This document shows positions 780 through 56,263 of a stretch of DNA of 64,000 bases, one piece after another; the first letter of the stretch is position 1; every line of letters begins with the position of its first letter. The DNA is taken from NCBI GenBank assembly GCA_903885375.1, contig CAISIK010000219.1, positions 1 through 64,000 of the forward strand, in the 5' to 3' direction. Position numbers and translations under genes: made by a program. This DNA comes from an uncultured Pseudomonadota bacterium. GTDB lineage: Bacteria; Myxococcota_A; UBA796; SXON01. The notes under the pieces are model-generated. The model ran no database searches. It was not told the origin of the DNA and saw only the letters and a list, made by a program, of their open reading frames with translations.

Positions 780-2930
780 CTACCCGTTGACGAACAGCAT
801 CTCGCGGTACTTCGGCAGGCTCCAGCGGTGGTCGGCCACGATGCGCTCGGCGGCATCGCAGGCGTTGCGGAGCGTCTGGAGCGCGGGCACCACGGAGGCG
901 CAGTAGTAGCTGGCCACCGCCATGAGCCCCTCGCCGGATGCGCCGGCCACCGCCGCATCCACGGCGTTGCGCGCCGCGAGGAGGTCCGCACCCGCCGCCG
1001 CCACCGCGCCCGAACGGCTCGCCGCGAGGGTGCCCGAAGCACCCACGAGCGCCTGCTCCTCGGCGATGAGCGAGGGGATCACGTAGGTGTCCACGAGCTC
1101 CTTGAGCACGTCGGACTCGATCTCCACCTTCTTGTTGTAGAGCTCGAGCCGCACGTCGTAGCGGCTGTGCAGCTCGTCCTTGCTCAGCACGCCGGTGCGC
1201 TCGAACAGGGTGCGGGCGGCCTCGGTGTTGAGCAGGCCGAGCGCGGAGGGCGTGTTGCGTGCGTGCGGGAGGCCGCGGCGCTCTGCCTCGACCACCCACT
1301 CGGCGCTGTAGCCGTTGCCATCGAAGCGCACGGGGGTGCTCTCCGTGAGCGCGCGGCGCACGGCGGTCATCACATCGTCGCCGCCTTCGATCCAGCGGAT
1401 GAGCTGCTCCACGCCGTCGGTCACGGCGGCGTTGAGGCAGGCGGTGGGGAAGCTGATGCTGGCCGAGGAGCCGACCGCGCGGAACTCGAACTTGTTGCCG
1501 GTGAACGCGAAGGGCGAGGTGCGGTTGCGGTCGGTGTTGTCCTGCGCGATGGCCGGGAGCCGGCTCACGCCGAGCTCGATCATCGCCTGGCCGGGCGCGA
1601 GGTTGGCCACCTGGCCGCTCACGATGCCGTCGGCGATCTTCGTGAGGAAATCACCGAGGAAGACCGAGATGATCGCCGGGGGGGCTTCGTTGGCGCCGAG
1701 GCGGAAGTCGTTGCCGTGGCTGGCGATCGAGGCGCGGAGCACGCCCGAGTGGCGGTACACGCCGAGGAGGGTGGCCGCGAGGAAGGCGAGGAAGCGGAGG
1801 TTTTCGGCGGGGTTGTGGCCGGGGTCCAGCAGGTTCTCGCCGGAGCTGGTCTGCATCGACCAGTTCACGTGCTTGCCGGAGCCGTTCACGCCGGCGAAGG
1901 GCTTCTCGTGGAGCAGCATGGCGAAGCCGTGCCGGTCGGCCACGCTGCGGAGCGTGCGCATCACGAGCTGGTTGTGGTCGGCGGCCACGTTGGCCTCGGT
2001 GAACACGGGCGCGAGCTCGAACTGGCCGGGCGCCACTTCGTTGTGGCGCGTCTTCGCCCACACGCCGAGCGCGTAGAGCTCGAACTCCACCTCCTCCATG
2101 AGCGCGAGCACGCGGGTGGGGATGGAGCCGAAGTAGTGATCTTCGAGGCTCTGGCCCTTCGGCGCCGAGGCGCCGAGCACGGTGCGGCCGGCCACGGTGA
2201 GGTCGGGGCGGAGCGCGGCCCACGCCTTGTCCACCACGAAGTACTCCTGCTCGGGGCCGACGGTGGCGGTGATGCGGGCGGCGGGCTTGCCGAGGAGGGT
2301 GCAGAGCTTGGACGACGCTTTGCTCAGGCACTCCATCGAGCGGAGGAGCGGCGCCTTCTCGTCGAGCGATTCGCCGTGGTAGCCGAGGAAGGCGCTGGGG
2401 ATGACCAGCGTGCGCCCGGAGGGGCCTTCCATGAGGAACATGGGGGAGGTCGGGTCCCAGGCGGTGTAGCCGCGGGCCTCGAAGGTGGAGCGCATTCCGC
2501 CGGAGGGGAAGCTCGACGCGTCGGGCTCGCTCTGAAGGAGCATGCCGCCGGTGAACTTCTCGATGGGGCGGCCGTTGTTGTCGAACCACAGGAAGCTGTC
2601 GTGCTTCTCGGCGGTGCTCCCGGTCATCGGGTGGAACCAGTGGCAGAAGTGGCTGGCGCCCTGCTCGAGCGCCCATTCCTTCACGGCGTGGGCGATGGCA
2701 TCGGCCACGGGGCGGTCGAGGCGGTGGCCGGCTTCGACCGTCTCCGACCAGCGGGCGAAGATTTCGGGGGGCAGGCGCTGCTTCATGCGCTCGCCGTGGA
2801 ACACCCGGGAAGCGAAGGTCTGCGACACGCGCGCGGGGCGCCCTTCGGCATCGACCTGGCGGGGCAGGCTGCGTACGGTGCGGGAGGTGGCGGTCTGGAT
2901 GGCTACACGACGAGCACTGGCCTCGGACAT
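780..2930 (-). CDS. glnN: Type III glutamine synthetase
   Basis: Predicted 716-residue enzyme that condenses glutamate and ammonium to glutamine with ATP. The length (type I is about 470) and the motifs mark the large GSIII class: GPEQEYFVVDKAW for the glutamate/metal site, NEVAPGQFELAP with the following AADHNQL segment, NGSGKHVNWSM for ATP binding, RLGANEAPPAI, and NRTSPFAFTGNKFEFRAVGS near the C-terminal active-site loop. I place the start at the ATG giving MSEASARR, because AGGGAG lies 7 nt upstream; the longer frame back to 3167 reads through the promoter region. A sigma-54-like promoter sits at 2997-3012. GSIII enzymes are dodecamers found in Bacteroides, cyanobacteria and some deltaproteobacteria. 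No truncation or missing catalytic residue was seen. Confidence 0.95.
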   Translation of the reverse strand: MSEASARRVAIQTATSRTVRSLPRQVDAEGRPARVSQTFASRVFHGERMKQRLPPEIFARWSETVEAGHRLDRPVADAIAHAVKEWALEQGASHFCHWFHPMTGSTAEKHDSFLWFDNNGRPIEKFTGGMLLQSEPDASSFPSGGMRSTFEARGYTAWDPTSPMFLMEGPSGRTLVIPSAFLGYHGESLDEKAPLLRSMECLSKASSKLCTLLGKPAARITATVGPEQEYFVVDKAWAALRPDLTVAGRTVLGASAPKGQSLEDHYFGSIPTRVLALMEEVEFELYALGVWAKTRHNEVAPGQFELAPVFTEANVAADHNQLVMRTLRSVADRHGFAMLLHEKPFAGVNGSGKHVNWSMQTSSGENLLDPGHNPAENLRFLAFLAATLLGVYRHSGVLRASIASHGNDFRLGANEAPPAIISVFLGDFLTKIADGIVSGQVANLAPGQAMIELGVSRLPAIAQDNTDRNRTSPFAFTGNKFEFRAVGSSASISFPTACLNAAVTDGVEQLIRWIEGGDDVMTAVRRALTESTPVRFDGNGYSAEWVVEAERRGLPHARNTPSALGLLNTEAARTLFERTGVLSKDELHSRYDVRLELYNKKVEIESDVLKELVDTYVIPSLIAEEQALVGASGTLAASRSGAVAAAGADLLAARNAVDAAVAGASGEGLMAVASYYCASVVPALQTLRNACDAAERIVADHRWSLPKYREMLFVNG

Positions 2931-2996
2931 GGTCGACTCCCTGGGGGTGGCGCGGCGGGAGCTAACGAGGCCACGATCCCGCTGCACCCCCAAAAA

Positions 2997-3012
2997 AGCC
3001 AAGCCGGTGCCC
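2997..3012 (-). promoter_or_regulatory. Candidate sigma-54 promoter of glnN
   Basis: Read on the minus strand the site is GGGCACCGGCTTGGCT. This keeps the invariant GG-N10-GC of -24/-12 promoters and matches 9 of the 11 fixed positions of TGGCAC-N5-TTGCW. The start of transcription would fall near 2986, giving a leader of about 55 nt before the glnN ATG. Nitrogen-controlled glutamine synthetases are classic sigma-54 targets, so context supports it. Confidence 0.45.
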
Positions 3013-3042
3013 CACCCGATCGAGCAAGCTACGGGTCCTGCG

Positions 3043-5061
3043 ATGCTGCCGCTTCTGCTCCTCGCCGCCTGCGCTCCCGCCGACGATTCGGCCGCCGCTG
3101 GCGCGGCGCCGCCTCCGCCCTGGGCCGAGCTCGAGACCGAGCTCGATCCCTTCCGCGCCATGCTCACCGTGGACGTGGGGGCCGAAGCGCGGCACCTCGC
3201 TGCAGTGGCGGGCGCGCCGTCGCTCGCGGTCTGGCCAGGCCCGCGGGGCGGGGCAGCGCTTCTCGATGGCCGCTACCGGCTCGACAGCCAGGCACGTTGT
3301 CTCGACCCCTCGCCCTTCCCGCGCGTGGAGGATGGGACCGACCGGCAGGGCGCCTGCCCCGAGGGGGAGGTGGAGCTCGACCGCACTGCGCTGGGCCCGG
3401 GCCGGGAGGTGCTCGGCGTGGCCGACGATCCCGTCCTCCACGAGGTGTCCGTGCTGTTCGAGGGCGGCGGGGTGGCGGTAGCGAGCACCGAGCTCCTCGA
3501 GGGCAACCCGCTCGACTGGCTGCGCCTCCGCCCGGCCGTCACACTGGAGTTGGCGTCGGGCGCGGCCCCGCAGGTGTTCGCGGCGCTGCCGGGCGGCGGC
3601 TGGGTTGCGGCGTCGGGCCGCGAGGTGGCCAGCTTCGGTCGCGATGGCGTTCGGCTCGACAGCGCCGATGTGGTGGACGATGTGTCCGCCCTCGTGGTGT
3701 CGGGCAGCGAGGTGTGGGCGGCCACCTCCGGCGGGGCCGCTTCGCTCGGCGGGGCGGGCCTCGCGTGCGGGGGCGGGGCCGGGCTGGCGGCGGATGGGGC
3801 GGGCGGCGTGTGGGTGTCCTGCGCGGCGGCGGGCCGCGTGAGCCACGTCAACGCGAGCGGGACGGTGCAGGAGGAGGTGGCCGTGGACGGGCTCGTCGGT
3901 GCGGTCGCGCTCAACGGGGAGACGGGCGTGGTCTACGTGGCGGTGGAGGAGGGCGTGGCGGAGCTTCGCGGCGGCGCGGAGGTGGCCCGGCACGCGGTCG
4001 GAAGGCCCGAGGCGCTCGTGATCAACGCCGTCGGCGAGCTCGGCGTGCTCCGCGAGGGCACCGTGGAGGTGTACGTGGACGAGACTGCGCTCGTGGGGCG
4101 CCCGCCGCTCTCGATGTGGATTGCGGCCTTCGTGGAGAACCCCCGCGCCGAGGCCAGCCGCGTGGCCTGTTCCGGCGCGGCGGACGGCATGGAGGAGCGG
4201 GCCGCCCGCGCGATCGGCAACCGAGCCCTCCTCGACGACCTCCCCCCCTTCGTGGCCCTCGCCGTCTCCCCCCCGGTGGCCGCCCACGCCCGGCGCTGCA
4301 AGGTGGCCGACGAGCTGGCGGAGGCGATCCGCGGCCCGCGCATCGAGGACGGCGCGCTCTTCCACGATCCCCCCGACTGCGCCGATCAGGATTGCCTCGA
4401 TGCGGCCGTGGCCCAGGAGGTGGCCGCGCTCGCCGACCTCGACGTGTCCCCGCGGTTCGCCGCCGGTGCGGCCGGCTGGGAAGCCGGGGGCGACTGGGTG
4501 CTGGCCGTGGAGCGCGCCGGCCTCGACCGGCACGCCTTCGTTGGCCTCTCCGCGCTGCCCGGGGTGGGCATCGACGACCCGCGCGGCAAGGAGGCCGCCC
4601 CCTGGTCCGGCGAGGTGGCCTCCCGCCCCTGGCGCACGGCGTCGGCCGACATCACGCTCGACGACGACCCGGCGGGTGGCTTCCTCCTCATCCCGGGCTC
4701 CACGTTGGCGATCTTCAACGCCGCCGACTGCCCGGGCGCGCTTCAGGCCGAGTGCCGGATGATGGACGTGGGCGGCGGCAGCGTGATCGACGCCGACGAC
4801 GTGGCGGTGGCCGACCTCCTCCTGCACCGCGCCGCCGGCCGTCGCGAAAGCTCGGGCGCGTCCACCTGGTACTTCCACCTCCCGGCGATCGAGGAGTTCA
4901 GCTACGTGGAGGGGTGCACCCGCAGCGAGGCCGGGAGCTGGTCGGGGAGCGGCTGCCAGGCCGAGCCGCTCCAGGGCTGGCTCTACGATGTGCACGCCCG
5001 GCTGGTGAACGCGGGTGTGGTGCGCTGGGGGTGTCCGAGTGACACGGAGGTGGGGGCGTGA
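3043..5061 (+). CDS. Large lipoprotein of unknown function
   Basis: 672 residues starting MLPLLLLAACAP, a very short signal with a lipobox (LAAC, Cys10). The N-terminal half is rich in short Gly/Ala/Val beta-strand patterns with repeating V-A-A-S-G type elements, as in beta-propeller or repeat proteins. The C-terminal third contains many Cys residues (PDCADQDCLDAA, DCPGALQAEC, VEGCTRSEAGS), suggesting disulfides outside the cytoplasm. I recognise no enzyme motif. The start was chosen because the longer frame back to 2542 lies antisense to glnN. A TACGGG element 7 nt before the ATG and no Shine-Dalgarno suggest a leaderless or near-leaderless mRNA. It is divergent from glnN and shares a 112-bp promoter gap. 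Confidence 0.75.
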   Translation: MLPLLLLAACAPADDSAAAGAAPPPPWAELETELDPFRAMLTVDVGAEARHLAAVAGAPSLAVWPGPRGGAALLDGRYRLDSQARCLDPSPFPRVEDGTDRQGACPEGEVELDRTALGPGREVLGVADDPVLHEVSVLFEGGGVAVASTELLEGNPLDWLRLRPAVTLELASGAAPQVFAALPGGGWVAASGREVASFGRDGVRLDSADVVDDVSALVVSGSEVWAATSGGAASLGGAGLACGGGAGLAADGAGGVWVSCAAAGRVSHVNASGTVQEEVAVDGLVGAVALNGETGVVYVAVEEGVAELRGGAEVARHAVGRPEALVINAVGELGVLREGTVEVYVDETALVGRPPLSMWIAAFVENPRAEASRVACSGAADGMEERAARAIGNRALLDDLPPFVALAVSPPVAAHARRCKVADELAEAIRGPRIEDGALFHDPPDCADQDCLDAAVAQEVAALADLDVSPRFAAGAAGWEAGGDWVLAVERAGLDRHAFVGLSALPGVGIDDPRGKEAAPWSGEVASRPWRTASADITLDDDPAGGFLLIPGSTLAIFNAADCPGALQAECRMMDVGGGSVIDADDVAVADLLLHRAAGRRESSGASTWYFHLPAIEEFSYVEGCTRSEAGSWSGSGCQAEPLQGWLYDVHARLVNAGVVRWGCPSDTEVGA

Positions 5062-53461: not shown

Positions 53462-54611
53462 GTGCCCCTCCTTCTCCTGCTGGCCTGCGTCCCCGCTCCC
53501 CGCCCCACGGAGGGAGCCGACACGTCCTCCGGGGTCGACAGCACCGCGGATTTCGTGGCGTTGCCGACCGGCTGCACCGAGGGCGCGGGTGGAACCGACC
53601 CCGTCACCCTCACGGGCAGCCTCGCGGTACCGTCCAGCGACCCCGGGCAGGCGTTCATGGAGCTCGTGGACGTGGACATCGTGGGCAACGTGGCCTACGC
53701 CGTGGGCCAGGGGGGGCTCCTCGTCGGCGAGATCGGGGCCGACGGCACGCTCACGCAGCTCCACCGCGACATCGGCGTCGAATACCGGGCGCTGAGCAAC
53801 CGCGGGGGCTTGGAGTCCCGCTTTGGGCGCCGGGGCGATGAGGGGATGGCCCTGGTCGGCGAGCGGCTCTACGTCGCGAACCGCACCGACGGCACCGTGG
53901 TGTACGACATCCGCGACCCCGCCCACCCGATCGTAGGGGCCGCGGGGGGCGGGGGCACCGCCACCTGGGAGCTGGTCGCCGTCGAGAGAAGCCTCCTCTA
54001 CGGCGCCGACAACATCGCCGGACTCGTGGTCATCGACATCCGGGAACCCGACTCCCCGCGGCTCCTCGAGGGCGTGCCGGGTGTGGGCGGCCTGTACGAC
54101 GTGGCGGTGGACGAGGCCTACGCCTACGGCGCCGCCGGCGGGGACAGGGTCGTGGTGTTCGATCTCGCCAACCCCGCGGCGCCCGTGGCGGTGGCGTGGC
54201 TGGTCACCGGCGGCTCGGCGGTGTCGGTCGCGGTGGAGAACGATGTCCTCGGGGTGGCGGACCACGAGGCGGTGAGCGTCTGGGATGTCCGGGACCCCCT
54301 GCGCCCCAGCCCCATCGGGTGGGAGGAGGTGCAGCAGTTCGCCCTCGCGCTGGATGCGCACGCGACCGGCGCGGTGGTCGGCGACTGGGGCTACTTCGAG
54401 TCGTGGAGCGCGGACACCTCGGCGACCGCGCCCGCGTTCGACACCCCGCTGGACACGCTGCGCGCCGGGAACGGCGTGGTCGAGGCGGTCATCACCAACC
54501 GCGGCAACGGCGCCCTCACGCTCACCGACGCGCTCACCGAAGGCGGCGAGGTGTGGGTGTCGCCGTCGGCCACGCTGGCGCCCGGCGAGTCGGCCACGCT
54601 CCGTACCCCCG
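53462..54611 (+). CDS. Beta-propeller (LVIVD-type) lipoprotein, runs into redoxin by a frame change
   Basis: About 380 residues. GTG start giving MPLLLLLAC (lipobox), an acidic Ser/Thr linker, then six repeats of the LVIVD type, each with a strand like LYVANRTDGTVVYDIRDPAH or VVVFDLANPAAPVAVAWLV. The last part (VITNRGNGALTLTDALTEGG ... TLAPGESATLR) is the first half of an ASH/HYDIN-like domain and stops abruptly. In this frame no stop follows until 56263, but the protein character moves to the +1 frame at about 54605-54611, inside a run of five C, where the redoxin begins. I read this as one ancestral protein (propeller, ASH, redoxin) with a deletion or indel at the junction, not as a 933-residue protein. 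Confidence 0.65.
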
Positions 54612-54620
54612 ATCGGCGAG

Positions 54621-55157
54621 GTGGCGCCGGACTTCTCGCTGCCGACCACCACCGGCGAGACGGTCCGACTCTCCGAGCAGCTCGGCTCGCCCGTGATGCT
54701 CGCGTACTTCGCCCCCTGGTGACCCGTCTGCCCGTCCGAGGTCTCGGACATCCAACGAAGCATCTGGCAGGGGTACCGCGAGCGGGGCGTGGTGGTGTGG
54801 GCGGTGGCCTCCGACGAACACGACAACGGCGAGGCGCTCGCCGCCTTCATCGAGTACTGCGGCGTCGAGATGCCGGTGCTGGTGGACGAGGGCGGCGAGG
54901 TGCACCGCCTCTACGAGCAGGAGAATCCTTTTCCGCCCGGCCCTTTCCCGCAGCAGTGGATCGTCGGCGCCGACGGCCGCATCGCCTACCGCCACAACGA
55001 GTTCGAGTACGATGCCGTCGTGGCGGTGCTCGAAGCGGAGCTGGCCGAGCAGGTCGGGCCGGCGCGCCGCGACCGGCAGCGGGGTCGGGCGCAAGCAGGC
55101 GCGCGCCGGGCGCGATCGGTGCTATCCTTGCCTGGGCGCGAGGAGGAACTGTCATGA
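54621..55157 (+). CDS. Selenocysteine-containing redoxin (thioredoxin-fold) protein
   Basis: 178 codons from GTG 54621, read through TGA at 54720-54722. Before the TGA: APDFSLPTTTGETVRLSEQ then PVMLAYFAPW; after it: PVCPSEVSDIQRSIWQGYRE, VVVWAVASDEHDN, VEMPVLVDEGGEVHRLY, PQQWIVGADGRIAYRHN. This is a continuous TlpA/AhpC-type redoxin, and the TGA is codon 34 in W-x-P-V-C, replacing the first catalytic Cys of W-C-x-x-C. Sec there gives a normal, more reactive redox centre. A SECIS-like hairpin begins 12 nt after the TGA. If fused to the propeller upstream the domain is periplasmic; GTG 54621 alone would make it cytoplasmic. The stop overlaps the ferritin-like gene as ATGA. A nonsense-mutated pseudogene is the alternative. 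Confidence 0.72.
54734..54749 (+). promoter_or_regulatory. Bacterial SECIS-like hairpin after the in-frame TGA
   Basis: GTCCGAGGTCTCGGAC folds into a perfect 6-bp stem (GTCCGA/TCGGAC) with a GGTC loop; a seventh G:C pair would leave a 2-nt loop. The loop begins 17 nt after the TGA and starts with G, matching the known rule for bacterial SECIS (16-37 nt from UGA, G among the first loop bases, read by SelB). Confidence 0.65.
55123..55128 (+). promoter_or_regulatory. Possible extended -10 element before the ferritin-like gene
   Basis: TG-C-TATCCT (TG at 55120) lies in the 3' end of the redoxin frame, 26 nt before the ATG with a strong AGGAGG between. It could give the ferritin-like gene its own transcript. 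No -35 is visible. Confidence 0.3.
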
Positions 55158-56263
55158 GCAGGATGGAAGCCGTCGATCTGCGCAACCGCACCTTGCTGGT
55201 GCTCGGGCTCCTGCCCCTCTGGGGCTGCGGCGAACCCGCCACCGAATGCATGGCCGTGCCCGCCAACGGGGAATGCCCCTCCGCCGCCGAGGCCAGCGAC
55301 ACCCTCCTCGGGGATCACTGCGGCTACACGGTGAACGCCGTGACCGGCGAGGGCGAGCTCACCGAGGTGCCCACGTGGGACACCGGCGCCGGCCAGGGCA
55401 CCCGCGAGGAGTGCTGCTACCCCACCCTCGAGGCCGTGCCCGTGGGCACCAGCTGCGTCGTGGGGCGCCCCTACATCGATGCCACTGGCGAGAAGGTGGC
55501 CCCGGCGCGCAGCGGCCGCGGCTGGGCCCGCGGGCGTCGCCCCGACGTGCGGCGCCTCACCGCGGCGGAGCGGGCGGTGCTCGCGGCCGCCTGGACGGAG
55601 GATGCGCTGGTGGAGCACGCGAGCGTGGCCGCCTTCGCGCGCACCACGCTGGAGCTGATGGCGCTCGGCGCCCCGGCCGAGCTCCTCGCCGGCGCCCAGG
55701 CCGCCGCTGCCGACGAGGTCCGCCACGCCCGCCTGAGCTTCGCCCTCGCCTCGGCTTACGCTGGCCGCGAGGTGGAGCCGGCGGGCTTCCCGGTGGGCGC
55801 GCGTGTGGAGGTGAACGCCGACCCGGCCGCGGTGGCGGCGGCCACCTTCCGCGAGGGCTGCGTGGGCGAAACGGTGGTGGCGCTGCTCTCCGCGCGCGCC
55901 GCGGAGGCAGCCTCCGACCCCGCTGCGCGCGGCCTGCTGGCGCTGATCGCCCGCGACGAGGCGCGGCACGCCGAGCTCGCGTGGCGCACGCTCGGCTGGC
56001 TCGTGCGTACGCATGGCGCCCCCGTGCGAGCGGCCTTGGCGGCCGAGGTCGCGGCGCTACGCGAGCGCGGGGTGCGGCTCACGCAGGTCACGTCCGGCGC
56101 CCCCGATGCGGTGCTCGCCGCCCACGGGCGGATTCGTCCCCACGCGGCCGAGGAGGTTCGTCGCGCGGCGGTCGAGGAGGTGATCCTGCCCTGCGTAGAG
56201 CTTCTCCTCCTGCAGGCGGCGGAGGGCGGCGCGGAGGACGCTTCGGCGGGCGCCACGGCCTGA
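55154..56263 (+). CDS. Lipid-anchored ferritin-like di-iron protein
   Basis: 369 residues; AGGAGG 7 nt before the ATG is the best ribosome binding site in the window. A lipoprotein signal (LLVLGLLPLWGC) leads to a Cys-rich segment (GDHCGYTVNAVTGEG ... EECCYPTLEAVPVGTSC), then a four-helix ferritin-like domain from about residue 140. Iron ligands are EHASVAAF (E..H), DEVRHARL (near 185) and DEARHAEL (near 270), two E-x-x-R-H motifs as in ferritin-like oxidases. It probably binds a di-iron site and acts in oxidation, iron handling or peroxide removal at the envelope. The start overlaps the redoxin stop, so the two are likely one module. Confidence 0.82.
   Translation: MSRMEAVDLRNRTLLVLGLLPLWGCGEPATECMAVPANGECPSAAEASDTLLGDHCGYTVNAVTGEGELTEVPTWDTGAGQGTREECCYPTLEAVPVGTSCVVGRPYIDATGEKVAPARSGRGWARGRRPDVRRLTAAERAVLAAAWTEDALVEHASVAAFARTTLELMALGAPAELLAGAQAAAADEVRHARLSFALASAYAGREVEPAGFPVGARVEVNADPAAVAAATFREGCVGETVVALLSARAAEAASDPAARGLLALIARDEARHAELAWRTLGWLVRTHGAPVRAALAAEVAALRERGVRLTQVTSGAPDAVLAAHGRIRPHAAEEVRRAAVEEVILPCVELLLLQAAEGGAEDASAGATA

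Follow-up and report, generated by a model that had tools for sequence, protein, structure and literature searches.

A putative selenocysteine codon in a family of propeller–redoxin fusion genes

Described relatives and the domain architecture

ResA and TlpA are extracytoplasmic proteins. Their structures (PDB 4nmu, 1st9 and 1jfu) combine a thioredoxin fold with a W-C-x-x-C active site, and both features recur in the gene family described here, which differs from ResA/TlpA in that the first cysteine is predicted to be replaced by selenocysteine (Sec, U) and in that the redoxin domain is fused to an N-terminal propeller and an Ig-like domain. Our alignment of the family (alignment A3, 20 rows) has an invariant glutamate six positions past the first residue of the active site, and 4nmu has this glutamate as well. 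Closer still in the active site are two entries in the available part of a 2026 prokaryotic selenoproteome catalogue, a ‘Redoxin family protein’ (PF08534, UxxC) and a ‘Prx-like thiol:disulfide oxidoreductase’ (PF00578, UxxC/UxxU) (PMC13188914), which share with the domain studied here the predicted Sec at the first cysteine position of the CxxC motif, the redoxin/AhpC-TSA fold and the same Pfam domains. This comparison is by description only, and the UxxC entries, in that part of the catalogue, are silent on a propeller, an Ig-like domain or a lipobox. An earlier note on this DNA had presented the protein as undescribed-looking, which holds for the fused architecture only, UxxC redoxin selenoproteins being catalogued already (PMC13188914).

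The NCBIfam model WAxxUGC_long (NF041054) also describes a longer, ResA-like protein and carries a Sec motif in its name. However, the protein encoded at our locus scores 31 bits against a cut-off of 300, and its motif is UPVC, not UGC, which rules out membership. Among the open-licence papers of PubMed Central, we found none that joins LVIVD with a selenoprotein or a redoxin, or a propeller with a bacterial selenoprotein, and no on-topic work on selenoproteins or selenocysteine in myxobacteria or Myxococcota.

The locus lies in a stretch of 64,000 nucleotides (hereafter the window) from a 6.0-Mb draft metagenome bin (224 contigs, 90.5% complete). A TGA at 54720..54722 (+ strand) falls within a redoxin (thioredoxin-fold) domain at 54612..55052 (+ strand, reading frame 0), where the translation reads ...LAYFAPW-U-PVC..., with U at the first Cys of W-C-P-V-C. 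The frame around the codon matches Pfam AhpC-TSA (82.4 bits) and Redoxin (52.4 bits), has a GC3 of 0.92–0.93, and from 54612 to about 55050 is 57% identical to the intact relative L091. The second, presumed resolving Cys of U-x-x-C (codon TGC, 54729..54731, + strand) is Cys in 20 of 20 rows of A3. The AhpC-TSA match and the aligned Cys relatives bear out the earlier assignment of this TGA to the first Cys of a W-C-x-x-C motif in a redoxin frame. The free-standing redoxin that had been proposed from 54621 onward has to be abandoned: 54621 is a codon within the gene and does not start it, and the redoxin forms the C-terminal part of a protein of about 600 residues. The TGA at 54720 very probably encodes selenocysteine and not a stop, and the joint explanation that we favor, with a probability of about 0.93, is a hairpin-directed insertion of Sec at this codon of an exported propeller–Ig–redoxin lipoprotein that would act as a thiol-disulfide reductase.

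Members of the family carry, in this order, a lipobox, an LVIVD beta-propeller, an Ig-like domain and a thioredoxin fold, in roughly 600 residues; the long relatives measure about 570–660 residues from the chosen starts, and the lipobox pattern is found in 13 of 16. The N-terminal part in the window (53462..54607, + strand, frame 2; GC3 0.93–0.96) comprises the lipobox LLLLAC, read by eye, the LVIVD beta-propeller and the start of the Ig-like domain. It is 43% identical to L091 over 403 columns and scores 36.4 bits for LVIVD against a Pfam gathering threshold of 20.2, with no single repeat significant alone. Among the relatives, L055 and L050 stay under the LVIVD cut-off and L074 gives no LVIVD match; the structure model of L091 matches beta-propellers. 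The label ‘Ig-like’ derives from a weak match to choice-of-anchor D, which at 18.7 of 45 bits in L055 falls short of the cut-off, and from strands 360–436 of the L091 model; in the relatives, this domain has an invariant Cys preceding DPD.

In an AlphaFold2 model of L091 made with 15 relatives (pLDDT 85.4, pTM 0.85), the N-terminal part is rich in strands and a thioredoxin fold begins at about residue 443; Sec, residue 479, sits directly ahead of helix 482–500. The modelled protein shows the combination that marks TlpA/ResA, a thioredoxin fold whose first helix starts at the UxxC motif. In a Foldseek search with this model, beta-propellers rank first and, among the top 50, the best match for the redoxin domain is the thioredoxin-like 2ls5 at rank 49 (TM 0.76, own length). 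Among solved structures, ResA 4nmu is the closest in sequence (84 bits). No NCBIfam model exceeds its cut-off for the window protein or for three long relatives; the ResA model, with a cut-off of 170 bits, gives 57.1 bits for the window and 28–64 bits for the three.

The hairpin downstream of the TGA

The putative bacterial SECIS hairpin, proposed on the basis of its fold, covariation, codon constraint and published rules, occupies 54734..54749 (+ strand), with the stem GTCCGA/TCGGAC at 54734–54739 and 54744–54749 and the loop GGTC (GGUC in the RNA) at 54740–54743. The perfect 6-bp hairpin with a G-starting loop that had been reported behind the TGA is thus present. The distance of 17 nt given for it is correct for the interval from TGA to loop, but not for the stem, which begins 11 nt past the TGA. 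Rules for bacterial SECIS elements, as stated in the available part of their source, are a loop of 3–9 nt, a stem of 4–16 bp, a G in the first two loop bases, a UGA-to-loop spacing of 16–37 nt, and an MFE at or below −7.5 (PMC13188914). Applied by hand, with the MFE computed over 40 nt, these published rules accommodate the window hairpin, as had been claimed (4-nt loop beginning with G, 6-bp stem, spacing of 17 nt, MFE −10.9).

The window hairpin alone is little proof, because such hairpins are common behind TGAs and shuffled sequences fold equally well. Its folding energy does not stand out (z −0.84, equalled or bettered by 40 of 200 shuffles), and a perfect hairpin of at least 6 bp lies in the allowed range behind 69 of the 964 TGAs on the two strands of the 64-kb window, with 4 of the 964 left under a stricter rule (loop of 3–4 nt, spacing of 16–18). 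An Rfam search of the hairpin region returned no SECIS family and one sub-threshold match, to an unrelated family. The SECIS element of E. coli formate dehydrogenase has an apical GGUC loop at nearly the same distance from its UGA, and differs from the window hairpin in its stem sequence and by a bulged U. What is above chance, in the sequences compared, is the conservation of codon and hairpin across relatives, not the hairpin by itself.

At either family register, at least five pairs can form at 53 of 54 distinct TGA sites, compared with 1 of 7 Cys fusions (L058); the sole TGA site that fails this count, L087, has another hairpin. For the alignment of the stem, the 41 TGA sites of the first set of relatives were split into the window's clade (22 sequences) and a second group (17 sequences), with 2 side-branch sites omitted. 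In the window's clade (21 distinct sequences), 99.2% of cells are paired and two pairs covary; columns 18 and 27, both of them third positions of Ser codons, are C-G in 18, G-C in 2 and U-A in 1. The second group, in which the stem is displaced by one base, has 97.5% of cells paired and likewise two covarying pairs. In both groups, the fraction of paired cells and the covariation score lay above those of all 500 shuffles, and the number of covarying pairs was reached by 7 of 500 in the window's clade and by 11 of 500 in the second group. Slid controls paired at most 51.6% and 56.3%, respectively, and their covariation scores rose to 0.027 against 0.119 for the true position in the window's clade, and to 0.074 against 0.113 in the second group.

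Codon choice within the stem departs from that of the surrounding genes. In the second group, the hairpin codons are AGT for Ser (14 of 14), GTT for Val (14 of 14) and CCA for Pro (15 of 17), whereas in the rest of the same frames these make up 3%, 3% and 5% of the codons for the amino acid; in the window's clade, the hairpin codon for Val is GTC in 22 of 22 sequences, against 42% elsewhere, and the P values attached to these codon-usage comparisons treat related sequences as independent. As judged from these alignments, the codons within the hairpin are those that the stem requires, not those that the genes favor, and the hairpin is under selection as RNA. Its hold on codon choice would provide a clean case of an RNA structure that overrides codon preference.

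Sec machinery and the distribution of Sec and Cys forms

The earlier note had proposed a search of the genome for sel genes, and selA (465 bits, cut-off 268), selB (297 bits, cut-off 242), selD (383 bits, cut-off 125) and tRNA-Sec (65 bits, cut-off 47) were all found; ARAGORN also reports the last as tRNA-SeC with anticodon TCA. The selD gene of this genome (L017, G000:C192) has one in-frame TGA, within HGGG-U-GCK, and is itself likely to be a selenoprotein gene; the SelD motif listed in the available part of the catalogue is UxxK (PMC13188914). Across the 58 genomes searched, selA is above cut-off in 48 and selB in 47. Of the 27 draft genomes in which a TGA form was checked, 22 have selA above cut-off (not G002, G008, G010, G015 and G040) and 25 have selB above cut-off (not G006 and G026), so that every carrier has selA or selB. 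Among the 31 non-carriers, also drafts, selA passes in 26 and selB in 22. The Sec machinery is widespread in the window's order and does not by itself single out the TGA carriers.

The first search covered the 58 genomes, i.e., the window's own and 57 relatives, and the regions then fetched were hand-picked. Of the 44 positioned matches, 41 have TGA as the site codon and three a Cys codon, one of the three (L088) being an ordinary redoxin outside the family; one further match lies off the site. Two of the 41 TGA sites (L065 at 3020, W-U-S-G-C; L087, W-U-T-S-C) fall on a side branch, together with ordinary redoxins. A second set has TGA in 11 of 14 positioned matches, four of the 11 being near-copies (L122, L125 and L126; L132 of L070), plus one match that does not cover the site, and a third set, again of hand-picked regions, has TGA in 6 of 8. 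Over the three sets, there are 54 distinct TGA sites.

Across 377 genomes of the phylum, which were not hand-picked, we searched with a profile of 19 TGA rows and one Cys row, so that the ranking is tilted toward the TGA type. The threshold of E 1e-22 was passed by 82 matches from 66 genomes; 44 of them have one TGA, and the 38 that have none are mostly short frames of ordinary redoxins. Of the best 33 of these 82 matches, 30 have one TGA, with the codon checked in 30 of 30; the others are two with Cys (L124, which is the L058 site, TGC; and the L068 site, TGT) and one that starts past the site. The TGA forms are found in 14 family-level groups, from the window's own family through other classes of the phylum. 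The relatives do not show the random disruptions that had been named beforehand as grounds for doubt, nearly all of them keeping the TGA and a long open frame; an exception is L081.

Full-length fusions with Cys at the TGA position are L058, L068, L133–L135 (near-copies of each other), L142 and L143, and their Cys aligns with TGA 54720, the outcome that the Sec reading had called for. In L143, 4 of 6 hairpin pairs are left. L058, from the same genus as the window, has TGC at the site and has kept the hairpin, as a recent change would leave it. The Cys query from L133 shares 52% identity with L140, which has a TGA and the hairpin. A tree of 58 rows (48 Sec and 10 Cys) requires at least four Sec/Cys label changes, in either direction. 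These paired Sec and Cys versions, one pair of them within a single genus, would make a natural test of the benefit of Sec in a thiol-disulfide enzyme.

We considered whether the TGA could simply terminate the frame, or be a Cys codon misread in sequencing, as the TGC of L058, in the same genus and with the hairpin kept, might suggest. This is highly improbable, since draft genomes of the 14 family-level groups have a TGA at this very codon and the hairpin accompanies TGA but is mostly missing in the Cys versions. Both AhpC-TSA and Redoxin match the domain, and the solved relatives, mostly ResA and thioredoxin-family proteins, include several peroxiredoxins; the domain might thus be a peroxiredoxin, with Sec as the peroxidatic residue that reduces peroxides. 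Peroxiredoxins, however, have the active-site motif PxxxTxxC, which A3 does not contain (an invariant Leu stands at −7 and an invariant Ala at −3), the top solved relatives are mostly of the ResA and thioredoxin type, and W-U-x-x-C with its second Cys suits disulfide exchange. We regard a peroxiredoxin as unlikely, and the protein as most likely an extracytoplasmic (exported) thiol-disulfide reductase in which Sec would be the attacking residue.

Other decodings of TGA were also examined. Its use as a Trp codon or as a general Cys codon was rejected, as the relatives show Cys, not Trp, at the site, and TGA also terminates many genes of this family.

For the proposed reductase, the sequence itself shows the codon and its conservation, the machinery, the conserved and covarying hairpin and the domain order, and we infer the insertion of Sec, the location of the protein and its substrate. 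SelB with Sec-tRNA-Sec would be recruited by the hairpin, whose GGUC loop lies 17 nt past the UGA, and Sec would be inserted at W-U-P-V-C. Sec would then attack a disulfide (or a peroxide), the Cys three residues after it would resolve the selenenylsulfide, and the propeller may position the redox partner.

On the whole, we incline to the view that these genes constitute an uncatalogued family of exported propeller–Ig–selenoredoxin lipoproteins, present in many families of what is suggested to be Myxococcota and in multiple copies in several genomes, in which the hairpin imposes rare codons and fixes the residues that follow the active site, and in which Sec and Cys have replaced each other on several occasions, the hairpin being lost in most of them. 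If so, an exported multi-domain selenoprotein family would be added to a phylum in which selenoproteins are hardly described, and Myxococcota would be an overlooked Sec-using phylum, with Sec at the cell surface.

The window copy, its neighborhood and further redoxins

GC3 places the coding signal in frame 2 until about 54600 and in frame 0 between 54612 and 55050; from 55051 to 55153 the signal is unclear, and from 55154 it is back in frame 2. By GC3 and by alignment to L091, the change of frame between the propeller/Ig part and the redoxin part is at 54600..54612 (+ strand), where about 30 linker residues, including the ‘CLATNDPD’ motif of the relatives, are missing. The window copy is consequently not one open frame even with the TGA read as Sec, and no second copy of the family stretch was found in the genome bin. 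Past the redoxin domain, a frame-0 tail (55053..55157, + strand) runs to a TGA stop at 55155–55157; it is absent from the relatives and has no clear coding signature, the last 35 or so codons of the redoxin frame being not coding-like by GC3. From U to the end, the window frame has 145 codons, compared with 105–114 in the TGA-type relatives. Frame 2 is open from 53462 to 56263 (933 codons) across the propeller, the out-of-frame redoxin and a ferritin-like gene, so that a gene caller could report a false protein of 933 residues; gene callers are likely to cut or misname propeller–selenoredoxin genes in general. We note that L081 (G008:C30, site 4359, reverse strand), a copy of the TGA type, is open for only 148 codons ahead of the site, and is perhaps a second frame-broken copy.

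The window copy is broken or misassembled, and between decay and a fault of the assembly we lean to the latter. An assembly or consensus error in this draft metagenome bin, with an intact propeller–Ig–selenoredoxin gene in the living organism, has by our estimate an even chance. The genome is a draft of 224 contigs at 90.5% completeness, both halves of the gene retain a coding signature, and members that are not cut by a contig end have at least 478 open codons before the site, with the exceptions of L081 and the side-branch L087; the loss of some 90–100 bases relative to L091, however, exceeds the usual single-base consensus error. Within a true selenoprotein family, the window copy might instead have become a decaying pseudogene, a deletion having removed the linker so that no full-length product is made, which we consider somewhat less likely. 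The passage of the coding frame from 2 to 0 at 54600–54612 with about 30 residues gone, the lack of a coding signature at the frame-0 end and the single copy in the genome are consistent with decay, as is L081, whose short upstream stretch of 148 open codons suggests that broken copies may occur elsewhere. Yet the redoxin, the UGA and the hairpin are intact, there are no further stops, and GC3 is 0.92–0.93, which suggests recent selection or an assembly fault.

The ferritin-like gene (55154..56263, + strand) was named by eye and has no Pfam or NCBIfam match. Its ATG at 55154 overlaps the frame-0 stop, in agreement with the ATGA coupling described earlier, but the gene is not a conserved partner: tblastn found no match to it near the relatives in 58 loci with flanks, 15 of which repeat others. 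With a rough ORF caller, no convincing gene-family cluster, the family itself aside, was found in more than 3 of 43 loci, and no conserved neighbor that would indicate a redox partner was found among the loci examined. A neighbor cluster in five loci was dismissed, as it looks like an out-of-frame reading.

Some contigs hold multiple copies of the family, with three in L051 and two in L069. In L065, directly upstream of a propeller–selenoredoxin, a redoxin with W-U-S-G-C (2912–3340, + strand, TGA at 3020) ends a protein that by eye has calcium-binding-type repeats; its best fold differs from the family hairpin, and it is probably another selenoprotein. The L087 redoxin (76–507, − strand, TGA at 397–399) is small and lipoprotein-like and reads W-U-T-S-C; it has a 6-bp hairpin of its own, with a loop of 3 nt, and is a candidate selenoprotein.
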